From Ignavibacteriota bacterium (GTDB lineage Bacteria > Bacteroidota > Ignavibacteria > UBA10030): a DNA stretch of 48,125 bases. Under the pieces are notes generated by a model, which did no database searches, was not told the DNA's origin, and saw nothing but the letters and a program-made list of their open reading frames with translations. A program made the position numbers and the translations under genes. Shown piece after piece: positions 4,354-17,110 of the stretch (the first letter of the stretch is position 1; each line of letters opens with the position of its first letter). The stretch is from assembly GCA_022616555.1 (NCBI GenBank), contig JAKEEG010000087.1, forward strand, positions 1 to 48,125, given 5' to 3'.

Positions 4354-4445
4354 GCTTTCATCCCAAGTTCTTACACATTAGTAATTGTTTGAACCAAAAA
4401 TAGTTTGAGAACAATCATCCATCCTTGTCTCACGCTGCCTCGAGT

Positions 4446-5237
4446 ATGGAATTGATGAAGCCGTTTGCACCGCGTCCGCTGACTGCGGACACACCTCCCT
4501 ACGTTATTGCGCACCGCGGAATTTCCGCACTTGCCCCTGAAAACACGATCGCGTCGTTCCGGCTTGCCGCCGAAATTCCGGGCGTTGATATTATTGAACT
4601 CGACGTCCGTCTTACGCGCGACGAAGAAGTGATCGTTCTGCACGACCGCACGCTCCAGCGCACTACGACGGGCAACGGCGCGGCGCGCGGATATACGCTC
4701 GCGGAACTTAAGCAATTCGACGCCGGTTCGTGGTTTCATCCGCGATTTGCCGAAGAGCGCATCCCGACGCTGCGAGAAGTTCTAGATGTCGTGGGCACAA
4801 GATGTTGGTTGGATATCGAAATGAAGTCCGACCTGTTTCATCGCGAGCCGGAGGGTTTGTTGGAGCGCCGTGTGTTGGAGACCGTGAAAGAAGCCGGGTG
4901 CGCAGACCGCGTGATGTATTCGTCGTTCGACCATCACCTCGTTGCGAACCTGAAGCGCATCGAGCCTGCGGCAACGACAGCAGTCATCTATAGGATTTAC
5001 CGCGACTTCGGCAGGCTGCCCTCGAAGCTGCTTCGCCGGGCCGGTGCTTCGGTTTTTGTCTGCTCGAAAATGGACCTCAACCAGGCAATCATTCGTGACG
5101 TGCGAGAACACAACATCCCCATGTACGTCTATACGTTGAATTCTCTTACAGACGTGCAAAATATTATGAAGATCGGGGTGCAAGGGATTATTTCAGACGA
5201 AGCGAGCGCCATTGTGTCCGTCGTCAAACAATCGTAG
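4446..5237 (+). CDS. Glycerophosphodiester phosphodiesterase (GDPD family)
   Basis: Predicted to hydrolyse glycerophosphodiesters to glycerol-3-phosphate and an alcohol, releasing phospholipid head groups. A TIM-barrel GDPD of 263 residues with H23-R-G, E32-N-T, E51-L-D53 and H66-D, the general acid/base and metal-binding set of the family. No signal peptide, so cytosolic. The ATG at 4446 is preferred; a TTG at 4425 would add seven residues and lies just after the repeat. No clear Shine-Dalgarno. A monocistronic unit is likely, since a DUF6588-type gene with its own Shine-Dalgarno follows after about 100 bases. Confidence 0.9.
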   Translation: MELMKPFAPRPLTADTPPYVIAHRGISALAPENTIASFRLAAEIPGVDIIELDVRLTRDEEVIVLHDRTLQRTTTGNGAARGYTLAELKQFDAGSWFHPRFAEERIPTLREVLDVVGTRCWLDIEMKSDLFHREPEGLLERRVLETVKEAGCADRVMYSSFDHHLVANLKRIEPAATTAVIYRIYRDFGRLPSKLLRRAGASVFVCSKMDLNQAIIRDVREHNIPMYVYTLNSLTDVQNIMKIGVQGIISDEASAIVSVVKQS

Positions 5238-5342
5238 TGAGCAATATCAATCCCAAATGCAATTTTGTGTTATCCTGCAGACTTACAGTTGTAATTTGAA
5301 CAAAGCTACGCTATCTTGTGTAACACTATTAGGAGGATTTGT

Positions 5343-6338
5343 ATGAAACTGTTTCGTTTGACCTTATTGTTTTCGACTCTTTCGTTGTTTGCCGGTGCGC
5401 AGATTGCCAACGCGCAGGATGACATCGGAAGCCAGCTATCGAAGGTCTCAGGTGAGAATGCCCCGAATTATCTCTCGCCATTTCTGTCGGGTTTGGGTGC
5501 CGACCTCAATAGCGGCATTTATCATTCTGCCGATCTTCATAGTGTCCTCGGTTTTGATATCGGCGTCAAGTTTACCAGTATTCTTGTGCAGGACGATGAC
5601 AAGATGTTTGATTTCGTAATGCCTGATCAAATACAAACTATTTTTGGTACACTCCAAGCCGGACAAGATTACGACAAAATTATTTCAGGGTCGCCGACGT
5701 TACTAGGGGGGGAGACGGGCATCGATGTGAAGGTTAAAGACACTTCTCCAAATGTGCCGGCGAGAGGTCAAACAATTTTTTCAACCCCTCCGGGGTCCAA
5801 TTTAAAACTTGTTCCGCTCATTGTCCCACAGGCTTCGGTCGGGTTGCCGTTTGGTATTGAAGTGACCGGCAGGTTCATCCCCACTGTCAGTTTGGGCGAC
5901 GTTGGCAAAGTCAATTTCCTCGGGTTCGGCCTTCGTCACGACATTGACCAGTACATTCCCGTTCCCTTGCCAATCGACATTGCAGCACACTTCATGACGC
6001 AGAGCCTCACATTTAGCGATAAGGATGACAAGAAAATTCTTTCTGGGAGCGGCACGGCATTCGGCCTCGAAGTCAGCGCCAGCGCGTTGATCTTTACGCT
6101 CTACGGCGGCTTGCAGCTAGAGAGTTCTTCGTGGGATATCGAGTCGTACGAATACACAGACGAGTCAAGCGGTACGCCAGTAACGGTGCAAATCCCCGGT
6201 TTTTCCGTCGATGGAAAAAACAAGTCGCGTTTCCATGCCGGTGTGCGGTTTATTCTCGCGGTGATTAACATCCACGCGGATTACTCGTTTGCCAACCAGC
6301 CGGTTATTACTGCCGGTTTAGGGATTTCGTTCCGTTAA
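5343..6338 (+). CDS. DUF6588-like secreted/outer-membrane protein
   Basis: 331 residues starting MKLFRLTLLF with a clean signal peptide (cleavage likely after ANAQ, near residue 25). AGGAGG sits 8 bases before the ATG, which fixes the start. The mature N-terminus, with GLGADLNSG and a following GFDIGVKF segment, resembles DUF6588, a family of predicted beta-barrel-like envelope proteins in Bacteroidota. Alternating beta strands run to a C-terminal GLGISFR, an aromatic-final outer-membrane-type end. Function unknown. It lies upstream of the TPR-CHAT lipoprotein but is separated from it by three hairpins. Envelope location is inferred from the signal peptide and strand pattern. Confidence 0.7.
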   Translation: MKLFRLTLLFSTLSLFAGAQIANAQDDIGSQLSKVSGENAPNYLSPFLSGLGADLNSGIYHSADLHSVLGFDIGVKFTSILVQDDDKMFDFVMPDQIQTIFGTLQAGQDYDKIISGSPTLLGGETGIDVKVKDTSPNVPARGQTIFSTPPGSNLKLVPLIVPQASVGLPFGIEVTGRFIPTVSLGDVGKVNFLGFGLRHDIDQYIPVPLPIDIAAHFMTQSLTFSDKDDKKILSGSGTAFGLEVSASALIFTLYGGLQLESSSWDIESYEYTDESSGTPVTVQIPGFSVDGKNKSRFHAGVRFILAVINIHADYSFANQPVITAGLGISFR

Positions 6339-6467: not shown

Positions 6468-9095
6468 ATGTCTCAAATCCTTCGAATCGTATTCCCAATT
6501 ATCTTCCTCGCGTTTGCGTGCGATATCCGTAACAACCCGGAAAAAAGTCCGGCCGAGTTGTTTGAAAACGGAGTAGAGCAGTTCAACGCGCAATCGTACC
6601 AGCAAGCTGAAGCACAACTTGTACAGGCATTAAGCAAGTTTGAACAGCTGGACGACGGAAGCCAAGCCGCACGTGTGGGGGGCTATTTGGGACAAATCAA
6701 ACTGATGCGGGGCGAGTACCGCGCTGCTCTGGACCAATTCCAGTCGGCAATCCAACACAGCCGCCGCGCGAATGATTTTCGCGCTGAGGCACACTTGAAT
6801 ATGCTTCTGGGCGAAGTGTTTCTCGAGCGCGGCGAATACGCCAACGCCCTTGAGCGTTTCCGCGGAGCGTTTTCGTATTACTCGGCTTTCGGTGACCGCA
6901 GCGCTTCGGCACAGATCGAGATGCGCATGGCGTCCGCAAGCAAACGTGCGGGAGAGTTGGAACAGGCGTTATCGTTATACGAGAGAGCCTACGGTTATTA
7001 CAGCAACGCCGATGAGAGTCCGCTTGCCAAGGCGCGGGCGCTTGCCGGTGTGGGAGAAATTTATGCGCTCCAGGGGCGGCACGAGGAAGCACTTAATTCG
7101 TTTACGCAGTCGTTTACAGCGGCCGGCTCCGACGACCCGGTGCTCGAAGCGACCTTGCGAATGCGCGCAGGCCTCTCTTCCTATGCACTCGGGAGATTGA
7201 ACGACGCGCTGGAACAGTACCGCCAATCGGCCAACATACTACGCTCGAAAGGCATTGCCCGAAGCCTGGAAAGTCTTGTTCTGTTCTACATCGGTAACAC
7301 GTATTACCACAACGGACTTTACGAAGACGCGAAAGGATATTATGCACAGGCGTTGTCGGTAGCGCAAAGCGGGAACGACCGAATTGCCGAGAACTATAAT
7401 ATCCTTGCCTCATTGCGCTGCGACGAACAGCTTATCAGGTCCGCAATAACGCAGGAAGGCGTGGAAGAGCTTGTAGATTCCTATCGGGCGGTTGCGGAAG
7501 GATTCCGGGCTTGCGGCCATCGCACGGGCGAGGCGTACGCCCGAAGCCAGATGGGGAGGCTGTACGTGGTGTTGCAGGATACCGCTCGCGCGCGCGAAGC
7601 GTATGCGTCTGCAGTCGAGTTAAATGAATCGACTGCCGGTGAATATGTCCACGACGAGTTTCACCGGCCGTATGTCTCGGAGCTTGGCATCGAGTCCGAC
7701 AAAGCGCGCTGGTACAGCGCGTTGGCGCAGTTGTTTCTGAGCGAGAATAAGTTGGAAGAAAGCCTTGGTGTGCTCGAGCGCAGTGTCGGCAAACGATTCT
7801 TCGATAGGTTGTTTCGCGCTGCAGTGAATGCGCGACATCCGCAACTGCAAGCAGAAGTGCAGAAGACGAGGGAAATGCTGCGGGAGGTCGAGTTGCTGGA
7901 AGTCGAATGGTCGCGCGCGTTGTCATCCGGTTCGGACCCTGAGAACCGGAGCCTGGTAACATCGCTGCAAGAGGAAATCGACCGGCTCAAAAACGAGACC
8001 CGGCAATCGGCGCTTCGCATTATTGAACAGCATCCTAACTACGAGCCTTTGGTCGGAACCGGGAGCTTCTCCATTGCTGAAATTCAGAAATTGATTCCCC
8101 GCGGCACCGTTGTGCTCAGATTTCTCCCAACGGATGAACAATTGTACATTCTTGTATTGACAAGAACCCGGCTTGCCGTGCGAACCTCCCCGGTAAAACG
8201 CAGTGCCCTTCTCGGGTCGGTAAGCGAGTACATGCGCTTGCTGAACGACCCCAACGTGTATGCAGGCGCCGCCGGGGCGGCGAGCGTGCCGTTTATGACG
8301 CGGTTCAGCATTCTTGCCAGCCAGCTGTATGACCAGATGCTGAGGCCGGCAGAGGCTCTCTTTGAACGTAACCTGCTCATCGTGCCGGGTTGGGAGTTTG
8401 AGAATTTTCCTTTCCACGCAACGGAGCGGCAGGACGCAAAGGGAGGCGTGCAGTACCTTGTCGAGGTATCGTCCGTGGATTACCTGCCGAGCCTCGCGTC
8501 GTTAGCCTACCGAACAGCGCAGTCCGCCCGCACACGGGATGTGCTTGCGCTGGGCAATCCCACGGGCAAAAATTGGTCAATAGACTACGAGCTGCGCGAC
8601 GTGCGAAGCTTTTACAGAAATGCGAAAATTTTTATCGGGTTGGAAGCGTCGTGGAAGAATTTAACCGAGACGCGCGGGGATATTGTTCAACTTTCGACGG
8701 AATTTGGAAAAATGCTGGCGACCCAGCCGCTCGGCATGTTTGTGCTCTCCGGCGGGGAGACCGTGGGCGAGACTCGCGAAATCGCTTTTGAGCGGTTGAC
8801 GGATATTCCGGCGTTTCCCGTTGTTTTTTGTTCGAACCAGCTCGTGGAAGGCGAAGGGCTTTCAGCCGCAAACGCGCTGCTGCTGCGCATCAACGGCACT
8901 TCGGACGTGTTCCTCAACAGTTGGTACGCGGACCGCAAGGCGGCAAAATTTTTCAGCGAATACTTCTACACCCATCTTTCCAACGGGCTTGCTGTGGGCG
9001 ACGCGTACCGGCAAGCGCTCCTCAACATGATCCGCAACAAGGATATTAACCATCCGCGCTCATGGGCGCAGTTCTTTCATTATGGAACGGGATGA
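6468..9095 (+). CDS. TPR-repeat lipoprotein with C-terminal CHAT domain lacking catalytic residues
   Basis: 875 residues. MSQILRIVFPIIFLAFAC is a lipoprotein signal with the acylated Cys at 18. The ATG at 6468 is chosen because it starts the signal peptide and follows the terminator hairpin. Residues about 30-430 are tandem TPRs (patterns such as ALDQFQSAI and ALERFRGAF), followed by a coiled-coil stretch and a C-terminal CHAT domain (about 540-875) with the family end PRSWAQFFHYG. CHAT domains are caspase/separase-like cysteine proteases. Here the ATHG-type histidine site reads STEFG (743-747) and the LSACET cysteine site reads LSGGET (760-765), so both catalytic residues seem replaced. I infer a binding or scaffold role on the periplasmic side. 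Lipobox and domain order are seen; inactivity is inferred. Confidence 0.85.
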   Translation: MSQILRIVFPIIFLAFACDIRNNPEKSPAELFENGVEQFNAQSYQQAEAQLVQALSKFEQLDDGSQAARVGGYLGQIKLMRGEYRAALDQFQSAIQHSRRANDFRAEAHLNMLLGEVFLERGEYANALERFRGAFSYYSAFGDRSASAQIEMRMASASKRAGELEQALSLYERAYGYYSNADESPLAKARALAGVGEIYALQGRHEEALNSFTQSFTAAGSDDPVLEATLRMRAGLSSYALGRLNDALEQYRQSANILRSKGIARSLESLVLFYIGNTYYHNGLYEDAKGYYAQALSVAQSGNDRIAENYNILASLRCDEQLIRSAITQEGVEELVDSYRAVAEGFRACGHRTGEAYARSQMGRLYVVLQDTARAREAYASAVELNESTAGEYVHDEFHRPYVSELGIESDKARWYSALAQLFLSENKLEESLGVLERSVGKRFFDRLFRAAVNARHPQLQAEVQKTREMLREVELLEVEWSRALSSGSDPENRSLVTSLQEEIDRLKNETRQSALRIIEQHPNYEPLVGTGSFSIAEIQKLIPRGTVVLRFLPTDEQLYILVLTRTRLAVRTSPVKRSALLGSVSEYMRLLNDPNVYAGAAGAASVPFMTRFSILASQLYDQMLRPAEALFERNLLIVPGWEFENFPFHATERQDAKGGVQYLVEVSSVDYLPSLASLAYRTAQSARTRDVLALGNPTGKNWSIDYELRDVRSFYRNAKIFIGLEASWKNLTETRGDIVQLSTEFGKMLATQPLGMFVLSGGETVGETREIAFERLTDIPAFPVVFCSNQLVEGEGLSAANALLLRINGTSDVFLNSWYADRKAAKFFSEYFYTHLSNGLAVGDAYRQALLNMIRNKDINHPRSWAQFFHYGTG

Positions 9096-9433: not shown

Positions 9434-10351
9434 ATGAAATTTGTTGCACGAATAAGCATAATACTAACGTTACTTGGACTCGGTTCTTGCAAAGACGGTC
9501 CGCCAAGTTCGGCGTGTCGTATTTGCCCAAGGGACTTTCGTGTTACGGACTTCGAACCAGCATGGTCACCGGACGGAACTACCATAGCATTTGTACGTGG
9601 AGATAGCTCACCGGCAAAGACAGGTATTTACCTGATTAATTTCGACGGCACAAACATCAGGCTGTGGCATGCAAGTGTCGGTGCGTACACTCCAACATGG
9701 TCACCAGATAATCAGTGGATTGCGTTTTCAGACGGTGGACAAATCTTCAAGAAGAAGGTTAATGGTGATAGCCTAACGCAGTTAACATCTGCAGGGGGGA
9801 ATTATTTCCCCGATTGGAGTCCGGACGGACGTTGGATTGTATTTGATTCAAACAACGAAAGTCCAAACGGAATGAATTTTGTTTGGAGAATGCAACCAGA
9901 TGGTTTGAATAAAGTCCGAATCAGTTATGAACCTACTCAGGGTGAGGTTCGTATGCCGAGTTGGTCGTTGGATGCAACGAAAATTGCACATATCCGGTAT
10001 TTCGTTGGTACTTTTTCTTCGGAAATAGTTCTAATGGATTCAAATGGTGCTAATACCCTTCGGCTCACAATAAATAATGCGACTGATACTTACCCCCGTT
10101 ACTCCCCGGATGGAGCAAAAATTGCATTTACATCACAAGCTGAGAACGGTTATACGCAGATTTGGGTTATCAACTCAGACGGAACAAATCCACAACAGCT
10201 TACCACAACACAGGGCTATACGTGCGATTGGTCGCCTGACGGTGAATGGATTGTCTTTACCGATTCGCGCTCAGTGAGCGGCAGGTTGTGGCTGATGCGC
10301 AAGGACGGGTCGGAAAAACAACAACTGACGTTCGATGAAGGAGGTGGTTGA
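9434..10351 (+). CDS. PD40/TolB-like beta-propeller lipoprotein
   Basis: 305 residues starting with a lipoprotein signal (LLGLGS-C19). The mature protein consists of repeated PD40 (WD40-like) blades, each with a (W/Y)SPDG(x)xIAF core: WSPDGTTIAF, WSPDNQWIAF, WSPDGRWIVF, YSPDGAKIAF and WSPDGEWIVF are visible. This is the TolB-propeller fold, often used for protein or glycan binding at the cell surface. No enzymatic motif is visible. A cysteine pair follows the lipobox (SACRIC). Codon use is more AT-rich than in the preceding genes. It has its own upstream leader and is followed by two hairpins, so it is probably monocistronic. Confidence 0.85.
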   Translation: MKFVARISIILTLLGLGSCKDGPPSSACRICPRDFRVTDFEPAWSPDGTTIAFVRGDSSPAKTGIYLINFDGTNIRLWHASVGAYTPTWSPDNQWIAFSDGGQIFKKKVNGDSLTQLTSAGGNYFPDWSPDGRWIVFDSNNESPNGMNFVWRMQPDGLNKVRISYEPTQGEVRMPSWSLDATKIAHIRYFVGTFSSEIVLMDSNGANTLRLTINNATDTYPRYSPDGAKIAFTSQAENGYTQIWVINSDGTNPQQLTTTQGYTCDWSPDGEWIVFTDSRSVSGRLWLMRKDGSEKQQLTFDEGGG

Positions 10352-10373
10352 CATGTGCCAAAGAGCATAAAAA

Positions 10374-10475
10374 TACCGCCGTTGTGCTGAGAACACACCG
10401 GCGGTGTACTGCACAAACAAAGCGGCTGCCTTAAAAAACCATGAATGATGTTATCATTCATCGTTACCGTTTTGT
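10374..10475 (+). terminator. Two hairpins between PD40 lipoprotein and subtilase
   Basis: ACCGCCG (10375-10381) pairs with CGGCGGT (10399-10405). Then ATGAATGAT (10441-10449) pairs perfectly with ATCATTCAT (10453-10461) and is followed by a T-rich stretch. The second looks like an intrinsic terminator for the PD40 lipoprotein. The gap otherwise holds only the subtilase leader. Confidence 0.5.
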
Positions 10476-10544
10476 TTGTATCTCGTTTCATCATAAGGTA
10501 CTCATAATCCACAATTTTATCCACTCCCCTCAAGGATGACAGTC

Positions 10545-12929
10545 ATGAAAAAACATTTATTCGTAGTCCAAACACACCTCGTAGTTGTCCTATTGCTTGT
10601 TTTGTTCTCGAATTATCAGTTACAAGCGCAATTGAAAGGCGACCTGAGAAGAGAGATTCTTGTCTATATCCAACCTAATGCACTGGCGTTTCCCAGTCTG
10701 GAACGCGGCCACATCGGAATCGAAAATCTTCCGCAGGTCTCAACTCCTCTCCGGGAAACATTTACCCGTTTTGGCGTTCAATCTATGGCAAAGGCTTTTC
10801 CAAATTTTACGGATGTAGACACAATCAGAACAAGGGAAGATGGTGTGGCCGTGAAGCTCCCGCAATTTTCCCGTATTTTCAAGGTCTATGTAGCAGATGA
10901 AGCAGACATCGATTCCGCCGTGAGCGCTCTCTCAAAAATTCCTGGAGTATTGTACGCCCACAAAAACAGCGATGCCCGGCGTAACAGCGACCCGACTTAC
11001 AGCAATCAATGGCATCTTAAAAACACCGGTCAAGGAGGTGGCACTATTGGAGAGGATATCAAGGCTGAGGAGGCTTGGCAAATCTTCACCGGCAGCTCCT
11101 CCATCAAAATTGCCGTTGTCGATGGAGGTGTTGAAACTGGCCACCAAGACCTTGTAGGCAAAGCAACAGGAGATTTGCCAGATTATGAAGATGAGCTTGC
11201 TCACCATGGCACACATGTAGCCGGTATTGCGGCGGCAAAGGCAAATAATGGTTACGGCGGCAGGGGTGTGGACTGGAATGCACAAATCCTCTCTGAGATT
11301 GTTTTCAACCACGACGGCTTTATGGGCGACGGGCGCGCAGCCCAGGCTATTACCGAAGCGGTCAATGACGGTGCACATATTATTAATCACAGTTGGGGTG
11401 GTCCTACGACTCCGACACTTGACGTTGCAATGGCGTATGCTTATAAAATGAATCGCGTCACTGTTGCTGCGATGGGAAACTTCGAGGGAAACTCAATACA
11501 ATGGCCCGCCGCTTTTGTGCAGGGAGTCATTGCTGTCGGAGCGACTCAGGATAATGGTATCCGCGACCCAGGCTCCAAAACTGGAAATCACATAGATGTT
11601 GTGGCCCCAGGCGGGTTTCAAAATTTTGACATTAATGGCAATGCTATTAACAACGCTCACGACATTTGGTCAACTCTGCTTAACAACAGTTATGGCTATG
11701 TTGCAGGTACTTCGATGGCTGCGCCCGTAGTATCTGGTATTGCTTCTCTTCTTAAAGGTTATAACCCTAACCTTTACAATGACGACATCGAGAACATCAT
11801 TAAGCTCTCAGTTGATGATAAAGGACCTACTGGTTGGGACCCCGAGTACGGTTACGGCCGCGTGAACGCCAAAAAGGCGCTTGAGCGTCTCGGCGCAAAC
11901 AACTCGGGTTATGTTGTCAATCACGCAACATCATCCGGCGGTACTGATCAAGGCGCCTCGAGTAACTACCTGATGACAATTTATGGAGCTCAGGGATTAT
12001 CCGATGGTGTCTATAATGTCATACGGCACGAAGTCCGGAAAAATGTTACCTTCGCCGCGATAAATTCTCCCGTAGTCTGAGGACGGGGCGTTGCAACAAA
12101 CGGCTGGGCAAATTTGGGAACCTTGAATTTTGGTTGGGGCTGGTGTGAAGTGGTGCCCGGCACTGTCACATCCACTGGGGCAACATTACGTACTTATGTG
12201 TATGAAGTATACGGTTGGGCTGTTCCTAATTTCTTTGGTTGGTATCTTACTACTCCGGGTAACGTTAATTTTGCCTATACGGTCCACGGAATCCCACAGC
12301 CTCTTGCGGTCACGATGTCTGGACCAACTTCAATCTATCATCCACAAAAACCTAATGTGGACCAATACACATGGACAGCAAATGTTACCGGTGGAACGCC
12401 GCCGTACACGTATGTCTGGAAAAAGAACGGTTATACTGTCGGCACAAACTCACCGACATACACAGAATACCTTTCCTGGAACGGGAACACTTGTGATTAC
12501 ACCCAGTGGACTCTGAGGGTTGATGTCACAGGGGGCGGTTCGGCCTACGCTACGAAAAACGTAACGGAATACAATTCCTGCGATGAAATTGACCCAGCAC
12601 TACGTGAAAGTGGCGAACAGGTAGCTGTGTTACCGGAAACATTCAACTTGGGTCAAAACTACCCCAACCCTTTCAATCCAGAGACAGAGATCACGTTTGC
12701 ATTGCCGGAGCCCTCAACAGTGCGGCTCACAGTGCTCGATATTCTCGGTAGAGAAGTTGCGATGTTGGAGAATGGAGCACTTTCTGCGGGCTACAAGTCA
12801 ATTCGTTGGAATGGTCGCAATGGCAACAACGAGCCGGTCAGTAGCGGAATGTATTTCTATCGGCTTACGGCAGTCGGTGAATCTGGTAAGAGCTTTGTCG
12901 AGACGAAAAAAATGTTGATGATGAAATAA
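10545..12929 (+). pseudogene. Subtilisin-like (S8) protease with T9SS tail, split by an in-frame TGA
   Basis: The start is the ATG at 10545: AAGG lies 9 bases before it but abuts the alternative ATG at 10536. A signal peptide ends LQAQ. The catalytic triad is complete: D193 (VVDGG), H221 (HHGTHVAG) and S390 (GTSMAAP). At codon 512 (12078-12080) a TGA ends the frame, yet the same frame continues for 283 codons without another stop, reading GRGVATNGW onward, an Ig-like segment, and a complete T9SS type A sorting tail (NYPNPFNPETEITF ... KKMLMMK). One substitution, for example TGG or CGA to TGA, explains it. As it stands the product would have an intact protease domain but no sorting signal. No Shine-Dalgarno supports restart at TTG 12114. 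Sequencing error is possible. Confidence 0.88.
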
Positions 12930-13026: not shown

Positions 13027-13893
13027 TCACCTCTGCCTTACCTTTACGCTACCCAAGCCTGCTTCGAGCTCGAACGTCAGCCTTGTCTTTGCTCGTTCGT
13101 AATTGTCGGTCTCGTACACGCCCTTTTTCACTCTTTTAAAGCCGTCGTCGATGTCAAACCCGGCAAACCAGTGGTCCTCATATTCGACGCGCGCAGCCGT
13201 TTCACGGGGCAGGTAAATCGTTACCGCGCCCAACCCAACCTCGACTTTCACCTTGGCGTCACGCTGTAATTTGCCGCCGAAGTCCAGCTTGTAGGAACCC
13301 ACTCCGCCGCTGAAATTCATCTTTTCGAAGTTTAAGTTGGCGAGATTGTAGGCGTCGAATTCGCTCACACCCGACTCGATGTCGATGTGTTCGGCAATAA
13401 CGGGGTTGGGTTCGTCGCATACTAAGTCTGCCGAGCTTGCGCCGGAGGAGATCGAGAGGTTCAACACCTGCAAGCCCGTGAGGTCTATTTCACCCTCGCC
13501 CGCACCGAATTCGATTTTGAAATCGATCGGCACGGCGTCGGTAAATTTCAGCATCCACTCGCGCTTGCGGTCATCCTTATCTCGCTTTCCGCCCCACCAG
13601 CGGGAGTCGCTATTGTCGGTTTCGATATGCAGTTCGCCGCGGTCCCCGCGCAGTTTGTAATCGACGCGCGGCATGGGGGCGTCTTCATGCTGGCGGAATT
13701 CTGCCGCAACGACTTTATCCCGGTCGCCCTTCTTCACGATGATTGTACCAAATGCCGCTTCGATATTCGCCCGCAGTTCTTTTTCGGATGTGAGAGGAAT
13801 ATCCTTGCGGGTTGTTTCCAAAAGAATTGCGGCGAAGACGACGGAAGTCGCCAGCAGCAGGAAAAGGCCGGTGTAAGTCAGGTAGCGTTTCAT
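13027..13893 (-). CDS. LiaF/toast-rack-type envelope protein
   Basis: 288 residues with one N-terminal hydrophobic segment (YTGLFLLLATSVVFAAILL), so membrane-anchored or exported, followed by an all-beta region. The repeated short strands with alternating small residues (IEFGAGEGEIDLTGL, LSISSGASSADLVC, FSGGVGSYKLDFGG, VEVGLGAVTIYLP) and the final LEAGLGSVKVRQR are the beta-helix pattern of toast_rack/DUF4097 and LiaF C-terminal domains. Such proteins sense or modulate envelope stress. It lies 77 bases downstream of an ECF sigma factor gene on the same strand, so it is a candidate partner or target. The function is inferred from fold and context. Confidence 0.72.
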   Translation of the reverse strand: MKRYLTYTGLFLLLATSVVFAAILLETTRKDIPLTSEKELRANIEAAFGTIIVKKGDRDKVVAAEFRQHEDAPMPRVDYKLRGDRGELHIETDNSDSRWWGGKRDKDDRKREWMLKFTDAVPIDFKIEFGAGEGEIDLTGLQVLNLSISSGASSADLVCDEPNPVIAEHIDIESGVSEFDAYNLANLNFEKMNFSGGVGSYKLDFGGKLQRDAKVKVEVGLGAVTIYLPRETAARVEYEDHWFAGFDIDDGFKRVKKGVYETDNYERAKTRLTFELEAGLGSVKVRQR

Positions 13894-15423: not shown

Positions 15424-15445
15424 TCTTTTTGTGGAGAGGATTGTT

Positions 15446-17110
15446 ATGCAACAACGGAGACTACAGGCTGTTGTCATCCTGTGCACGTTTATCGCCGTGT
15501 TGTCCGCCGGTTTTTACAGTATCGGTGACGGCGACATGTTACTCAAGATTCACCGTGGAATCGATCTCTTTGGGAAAGTGTATAAAGAGGTTGCAGCGAA
15601 TTATGTCGATGAAGTCGACCCGGACGAATTTATGCGCGCCGGCATCGACGGCATGCTGAAGACACTCGACCCGTACACAGTGTACATCGGTGAAAAAGAT
15701 AACGATGAAATCGACCTTGTCACTACCGGCAAGTACGGCGGCGTGGGCGTTACCATCGGCGTGCGCGATGGAATGATCTTTGTCGTTGATTTGATCGATG
15801 GCTTTTCTGCCGCCAAGCAGGGCATCCAAATAGGCGACCAGATTCTTGAAATCGACGGCAAGTCGATTACGGGCTGGAGGCTCGACGAGATACGGCAGAT
15901 TGTTCGCGGCGCGCCGGGCACGGACATCAGGATGAAAATTGAACGTGAGGACGAACCACAGCCGCTGGATTTTGTTCTCGTGCGCGAAGAAATTTCCGTC
16001 AAGAACATCGCCTACACGGGGTATATCGAACCGGGCATCGGATACATCAAGCTCGAACGGTTCTCGCGCTCTGCCGGAGACGACATGCGCCAGGCCATCA
16101 AGGAACTGCGCGTGAAGGGAACGCTGACAGGGCTCGTATTGGATATTCGCGACAATCCCGGCGGATTGCTGGACGTCGCTGTCGATATCTCTGCCAAATT
16201 CCTGCCGGAAAGCAGCCTTGTCGTTTCGACACGGGGACGCAAAAGCGACAGTCAGCGCAAATATTATTCCACAGAAATCCCGATGTTGCCCGACGTCCCG
16301 CTCGCCGTGCTTGTCAACAACAACAGCGCCAGCGCCAGCGAGATTGTCGCAGGGGCGATTCAGGATTTTGACCGTGGCATTATCGTCGGAACGCGCACAT
16401 ACGGCAAAGGGTTGGTGCAGACCATCACGCGCCTCTCTGAAGCAACATCGTTGAAGATGACCACCGCGCGCTATTATACCCCGAGCGGCAGAAGCATTCA
16501 GGAAATCGACTACTCGCACCCGCTGGAAAACGGGGAGTACGCCACCATGCCGGACAGCTTGCGCAAGGTATACCACACCGCGCACAACCGCGAGGTGAAA
16601 GAAGGCGGCGGCATTGTGCCGGATTCCGTAGTCAGCAGCCCTGAACCGAGCCGGTTGTATCAGGAACTGCAGCGCAAGGCGATGTTTTTCAAATACGCCA
16701 ACCGTTATGCCAGCAAACAGAAATCGCTGCCGGAGAATTTCGAGGTCACAGACGCTATCCTGAAGGATTTTGAAGCGTTTCTCAGCGAGCGCAAGTTCGA
16801 GTTTGTCGGCGAAGCAGAGTTGAATCTGCGTGAACTGCGCGAGACGGCGCAACAATACGGTTACGGCAAAGAATTTTTTGATCACATCGATGAGTTAAGC
16901 GCGCTAGCAGCAAAGGAGAAGAACACCTCGTTCCAACGGAATAAGAAGGAAATTCAGGTTGCGTTGAAAGCGGAAATACTCGACAGGCTTGGCGGCGACA
17001 AAGCCCGCATCGAAAGCACCATGCGCGATGATAGCCAGTTAAAGACTACCGCGGCATTGTTGAAAAACAGGAGGGTCTATACCGCGCTGTTGGGCGAGAA
17101 GGAAAGATAA
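15446..17110 (+). CDS. S41 family C-terminal processing peptidase (CtpA/Prc-like)
   Basis: A periplasmic serine protease of 554 residues. A hydrophobic segment (VVILCTFIAVLSAGFYS, about 8-24) anchors or exports it. A PDZ domain (about 90-170, with GVGVTIGV and GDQILEIDGKSI) precedes the S41 domain. The catalytic Ser is in SASASE (about 296) and the Lys is 321 in YGKGLVQT; the 25-residue spacing matches CtpA/Prc. GAGAGGA upstream makes ATG 15446 the start; a GTG at 15431 is part of that ribosome-binding region. A C-terminal helical tail of about 150 residues follows. Such proteases trim C-termini of envelope proteins. Confidence 0.94.
   Translation: MQQRRLQAVVILCTFIAVLSAGFYSIGDGDMLLKIHRGIDLFGKVYKEVAANYVDEVDPDEFMRAGIDGMLKTLDPYTVYIGEKDNDEIDLVTTGKYGGVGVTIGVRDGMIFVVDLIDGFSAAKQGIQIGDQILEIDGKSITGWRLDEIRQIVRGAPGTDIRMKIEREDEPQPLDFVLVREEISVKNIAYTGYIEPGIGYIKLERFSRSAGDDMRQAIKELRVKGTLTGLVLDIRDNPGGLLDVAVDISAKFLPESSLVVSTRGRKSDSQRKYYSTEIPMLPDVPLAVLVNNNSASASEIVAGAIQDFDRGIIVGTRTYGKGLVQTITRLSEATSLKMTTARYYTPSGRSIQEIDYSHPLENGEYATMPDSLRKVYHTAHNREVKEGGGIVPDSVVSSPEPSRLYQELQRKAMFFKYANRYASKQKSLPENFEVTDAILKDFEAFLSERKFEFVGEAELNLRELRETAQQYGYGKEFFDHIDELSALAAKEKNTSFQRNKKEIQVALKAEILDRLGGDKARIESTMRDDSQLKTTAALLKNRRVYTALLGEKER

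Follow-up and report, generated by a model that had tools for sequence, protein, structure and literature searches.

A lipid-anchored TPR protein of Ignavibacteria-like bacteria with a predicted catalytically dead, separase-like CHAT domain

The gene at positions 6468-9095 of the window, by which we mean the whole 48,125-nucleotide stretch of contig JAKEEG010000087.1 of an Ignavibacteriota bacterium that was analysed, encodes a TPR protein with a C-terminal CHAT domain that sequence alignment strongly supports as a catalytically dead pseudoprotease. Its N-terminus indicates that the product is an exported, lipid-anchored lipoprotein of the cell envelope. By analogy with the adaptors LbcA and NlpI we propose, at about even odds (roughly 0.5), that it works in the envelope without catalysis, as a TPR adaptor or scaffold. 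Most discussion of CHAT domains concerns proteases of conflict and CRISPR systems, and within the literature that we searched no paper tied a CHAT domain to a pseudoprotease, nor to Ignavibacteria.

The PF12770 (CHAT) profile of Pfam matches residues 616-873 of the product with an E-value of 7e-20 over profile positions 3-288 of 289, and the score of 72 bits against a curated cut-off of 24 places the protein in the CHAT family; no other gene of the 3.0-Mb host genome matches PF12770/CHAT. A fold search with an AlphaFold2 model computed with 17 homologs (pLDDT 89.3, pTM 0.87) recovered: 1) the separase protease domain (5fc2_B), which matches model residues 428-875 (Z 22.4, rmsd 3.2 Å, 299 residues aligned); 2) Csx29 (7y85_D), which matches residues 184-875 (Z 26.3, rmsd 8.1 Å, 518 aligned); and 3) the LGN/Pins TPR domain, which matches the TPR part of the model (Z 31.8). 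A preliminary description of this DNA had held that the CHAT fold is retained apart from its catalytic residues and had proposed such a structural comparison as a check; the near full-length Pfam match and the predicted model both agree with it. The link to separase rests on the fold search, because a phmmer search of PDB with the single sequence recovered above chance only TPR structures, and a profile of the CHAT region gave a weak match to Csx29 (E = 0.03) covering part of that region.

With the ATG at 6468 taken as start (an in-frame TTG is also present upstream), the protein begins with a hydrophobic stretch followed by a lipobox cysteine, MSQILRIVFPIIFLAFAC. The lipobox of the window's protein is itself loose (A-F-A-C) and that of many homologs is more classic, for example LWGC; the cysteine, Cys18, is aligned in all 49 homologs of the alignment. 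The residue at position +2 after it varies (D in 17, E in 9, S in 9, G in 7, and others). These features indicate export and lipidation, and the exposure on the cell surface that had been claimed in calling it a surface lipoprotein is unsupported.

Table 1. Positions of the lipoprotein gene, its parts and the genes discussed with it (window coordinates unless another locus is named).
Feature	Position	Strand	Basis or remark
TPR-pseudoCHAT lipoprotein gene	6468..9095	+	Intact ORF; 875 aa plus stop
Predicted lipoprotein signal peptide up to lipobox Cys18 (FLAFAC)	6468..6521	+	Aligned Cys in 49/49 homologs
TPR superhelix, residues 28-449, about ten helical pairs	6549..7814	+	Pfam TPR_12 and others; AlphaFold2 helices; LGN/Pins fold match
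Long helical hairpin, residues 458-521	7839..8030	+	AlphaFold2
Separase-like CHAT region, residues 547-875	8106..9092	+	Pfam match 616-873; AlphaFold2; separase fold match
Family signature ELRDVRSF, residues 708-715	8589..8612	+	D711 46/47, R/K713 47/47
His site, Glu745	8700..8702	+	His in 6/6 active CHATs; acidic in 39/47 family members
LSGGET, residues 760-765; strand upstream of the real Cys site	8745..8762	+	Alignment with active CHATs
True Cys motif CSNQ, residues 788-791; LSAC in active CHATs	8829..8840	+	Cys replaced by Gln791; residue 790 N/D in 45/47
Family signature ADRKAAKFFSE, residues 821-831	8928..8960	+	SLWxVxD Asp replaced by Arg823; K827 46/47, F829 47/47
GDPD (glycerophosphodiester phosphodiesterase), syntenic neighbour	4425..5237	+	Pfam; synteny
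DUF6588 protein, frequent upstream neighbour	5316..6338	+	PF20230, E 2e-56; synteny
Toast_rack/LiaF-like protein, convergent syntenic neighbour	13027..13893	-	Pfam; synteny
PDZ-S41 C-terminal processing protease, same syntenic block, speculative client	15431..17110	+	60/61 genomes
Diverged TPR lipoprotein of families f16/f24	L127 6590-9223	+	Matching genes in L128, L129, L130, L131

An HHalign profile alignment of the lipoprotein family against active CHATs (E = 2e-23 over 260 columns) and a MAFFT alignment located both former catalytic positions: 1) The His column, which holds His in all six active CHATs of the same order, is occupied by Glu745, with STEF replacing ATHG, and this bears out the His site that had been read as STEFG. 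2) The LSACET motif of active CHATs aligns to CSNQLV, in the segment FCSNQL, so that the column of the catalytic Cys holds Gln791. 3) LSGGET, which had been taken for the altered Cys motif, lies upstream of it and is aligned by both methods to the strand after the His motif, where L134, an active TPR-CHAT of the same order, has LSPDG. The loss of the Cys that had been claimed therefore stands, but not the motif to which it had been assigned. Neither catalytic residue of an active CHAT cysteine protease is present, and a search for an intact pair elsewhere in the domain, which would have spoken for activity, found none: Cys788, its only Cys, is Leu in the other 26 of the 27 members from the window's taxonomic family, and His650, the only near-invariant His (46/47), lies in an FPFHA segment far in sequence from the catalytic motifs.

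Homologs share this loss. Not one of 47 full-length members keeps both residues; His is retained in a single member (L046) and Cys in a different one (L044). These two are long-branch members of the lipoprotein family. In a maximum-likelihood tree of 59 CHAT regions the 47 family members and 12 active CHATs are split by a branch with support of 100/100, and because of this split the simplest account is a single, ancestral loss. We also encountered a second TPR-CHAT in one relative (L169, 1900-4500, + strand) that keeps its His motif as HIASHA and has no LSACET-like Cys motif; its frame ends shortly afterwards and may be truncated.

Strong purifying selection acts on the dead CHAT domain, which is conserved better than any other part of the protein; this result is well supported. 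Averaged over pairs of family members, identity is 46-70% in the CHAT segments other than the site loops, where it is 38%, and 27-35% across the TPRs and the hairpin; each of the seven close pairs has a lower dN for CHAT than for the TPRs; and CHAT dN/dS is about 0.02-0.15 in pairs with unsaturated dS, a rough figure from simple Nei-Gojobori counts. With the family-wide residue loss and the separase-like predicted fold, this selection gives good support to the earlier suggestion of a pseudoprotease on an exported lipoprotein. The surroundings of the former site in the sequence look as if they had been remodelled for something besides the old chemistry. Residues that are fixed in the family and variable in active CHATs include D711 (46/47), R/K713 (47/47) and K827 (46/47), and all 47 members have Phe at position 829, against Leu or Ile in active CHATs. 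In the SLWxVxD motif the Asp has given way to Arg823 in 27/27 members of the window's taxonomic family and in 11/20 of the other members. Just before the lost Cys, position 790 holds N or D in 45/47, and position 745 is acidic in 39/47, while residue 791 drifts in members from outside the window's taxonomic family.

The carriers are uncultured Ignavibacteria-like bacteria known from MAGs. Homologs occur in 28 of the 32 genomes of the window's taxonomic family (36-46% identity, full length where complete), in many genomes of the order (20-28% identity) and, at full length, in f9, another family of the class. With small variations, families f1, f3 and f6 share the gene order rlmN-adk-GDPD-(DUF6588)-TPR-CHAT-toast_rack-ECF sigma-dTMP kinase-S41 protease; f5 keeps DUF6588-CHAT-toast_rack-sigma and f9 keeps adk-GDPD-DUF6588-CHAT. 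This synteny covers the window's family and most of its order, and the adk-GDPD-DUF6588 part recurs in another order. Since gene order is kept across families, the best reading is that the lipoprotein gene belongs to the core genome, is inherited vertically and lies outside any defence island. Four genomes of the window's family (G011, G013, G020 and G031) lack it, and as they also lack the syntenic S41 copy these absences may be assembly gaps. In f2 and some f3 genomes the flanking genes are joined without the TPR-CHAT gene, so that its absence is real; being absent from some complete genomes, it is therefore not essential.

The nearby DUF6588 gene, to which the preliminary description had drawn attention, is a frequent neighbour, but a special tie is not sustained: DUF6588 is found in genomes without the TPR-CHAT gene and is non-adjacent in part of the family, and it was rejected as an obligate partner. 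In the window, genes for a PD40 lipoprotein and a subtilase (9434-12929, + strand) separate TPR-CHAT from toast_rack, and these look like an insertion in the window's lineage, as TPR-CHAT and toast_rack are directly adjacent in many relatives. The subtilase (S8) frame (10536-12929, + strand) contains an in-frame stop at about 12078-12080, after which it resumes and closes with a sorting tail for type IX secretion; a single broken gene, two separate genes or a mistake in the assembly could explain it. Co-occurrence with the type IX system, scored by SprA_N, was uninformative, at 58 of 61 genomes with all 53 high-quality ones included.

Families f16 and f24 of the same class have TPR lipoproteins of equal size whose C-terminal domain is strongly diverged. 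In one f16 member (n = 1) this domain is unrecognised by Pfam, and the fold search with an f16 model, whose C-terminal part is of low confidence, gave only TPR matches among those listed. As a set, the f16/f24 proteins join the lipoprotein family over the whole length (HHalign probability 96%, E = 5e-9) and reach active CHATs only at E = 0.002. Their genes lie in another neighbourhood, with AIR-synthase-like and, in one case, PD40 genes. The profile comparison suggests an older, wider lipoprotein family whose CHAT head probably diverged further in f16 and f24.

Since conservation peaks in the dead domain and the gene keeps the same genomic place across the lineage, a non-cutting role in binding or as an adaptor is indicated. 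In such an adaptor the lipid anchor would hold a TPR superhelix ending in a non-cutting head of the separase/CHAT fold; the fast-evolving TPR groove would capture variable clients in the periplasm, and the conserved pseudo-CHAT head, with its former active site remodelled, would dock one conserved, putative partner. The PDZ-S41 protease of the same syntenic block is a hypothetical partner in the fashion of LbcA-CtpA and NlpI-Prc, although the pairing is a guess. The case for it as exclusive partner is weakened by its presence in 60 of 61 genomes, including ones without the lipoprotein; it was not found beside the lipoprotein gene in f5 and f9, and adjacency may be functionally meaningless within a housekeeping block as stable as this one (adk, dTMP kinase). 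In its full form, which we put forward tentatively and with the odds somewhat against it, the proposal is of a lineage-wide, vertically inherited envelope pseudo-separase, whose old active site would have become a dedicated pocket for a conserved periplasmic partner and which would act as a non-proteolytic adaptor outside the cytoplasm.

The new charges fixed around the former motifs (acidic 745, N/D790, R713, R823 and K827) would also suit an envelope sensor or receptor, whose former cleft would recognise a particular small ligand or peptide and whose TPRs would relay the bound state to another envelope protein. The architecture matches that of Csx29, in which a TPR-to-CHAT allosteric path has been described (PMC10028731), and the syntenic block includes an ECF sigma gene. 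However, this sigma gene, in a conserved block, is encoded on the opposite strand and persists in genomes that lack the lipoprotein, the lipoprotein has no transmembrane or cytoplasmic output domain, and the drift of residue 791 likewise speaks against a sensor, which we regard as unlikely. A regulator of another clan-CD protease, comparable to cFLIP, is improbable. Dead clan-CD homologs are common in bacteria, pseudo-variants making up 28% of cyanobacterial orthocaspases (PMC8283722), and the genomes of many relatives contain a gene for an exported WD40-caspase whose His-Cys pair is intact; yet none was found in the lipoprotein-bearing f3 and f6, and the window's genome encodes neither an active CHAT nor a WD40-caspase, which was rejected as the partner there. 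WD40-caspase relatives as such occur in 28 of 61 genomes, and exported copies (Peptidase_C14) with both motifs intact lie in L168 (2165-4609, - strand) and L170 (1911-4364, + strand). It is very doubtful that the protein is still an enzyme with other chemistry at the remodelled site, for instance Glu/Asp745 with Lys827: the latter and D711 are conserved like catalytic residues and 745 is mostly acidic, but the acid is missing in 8/47 and position 791, that of the nucleophile, holds Q, H, T, R, S, L, V, I or yet other residues. That the domain is a decaying relic of a protease, drifting without function, would fit the barely recognisable C-terminal domain of the f16/f24 lipoproteins, which keep their TPRs, and the clean absence of the gene at the syntenic site in some genomes, but is highly improbable in view of frames intact throughout, low dN, a CHAT part more constrained than the TPRs and retention in most of the order.

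The lipoprotein is a syntenic core-genome CHAT protein that has left the protease role: it is exported, lipid-anchored and, as predicted, catalytically dead, and its dead domain is nevertheless better conserved than its repeats. It offers a clear test case for the reuse of a separase-like fold in binding. It also provides an annotation for a widespread lipoprotein, hypothetical so far, which an automatic pipeline would label a CHAT protease.

Among known systems, Csx29 of the type III-E CRISPR Craspase resembles the lipoprotein in that a separase-like protease region follows its TPR superhelix. It acts in a CRISPR complex and requires H615 and C658 (PMC10028731), whereas here both sites are replaced, in an exported lipoprotein with housekeeping neighbours; an association with Cas7-11 is absent, the neighbours being rlmN, adk, GDPD, DUF6588, toast_rack and ECF sigma genes. 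The separase protease domain (ctSPD) is the best compact fold match to the CHAT half of the lipoprotein, but separase is an active His-Cys protease of chromosome segregation and has 14% sequence identity to it. The active TPR-CHATs of the same order (such as L134 and L135) have PF12770 and the domain order in common with the lipoprotein, but they keep an ATHG-type His and an LSACET-type Cys, score 137-243 bits on PF12770, where the lipoprotein reaches 74.9, and fall outside the lipoprotein clade. Cyanobacterial pseudo-orthocaspases resemble it in having a clan-CD fold with the His-Cys pair substituted; they are, however, Peptidase_C14 rather than CHAT proteins and are not described as a TPR lipoprotein family (PMC8283722). 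Finally, TPR lipoproteins serve as adaptors of periplasmic proteases, NlpI for Prc and LbcA for CtpA, and LbcA binds substrates and protease separately (PMC11021448). Unlike the lipoprotein described here, these lipid-anchored periplasmic TPR proteins are described without a CHAT domain, and the likeness to them is one of functional analogy only.
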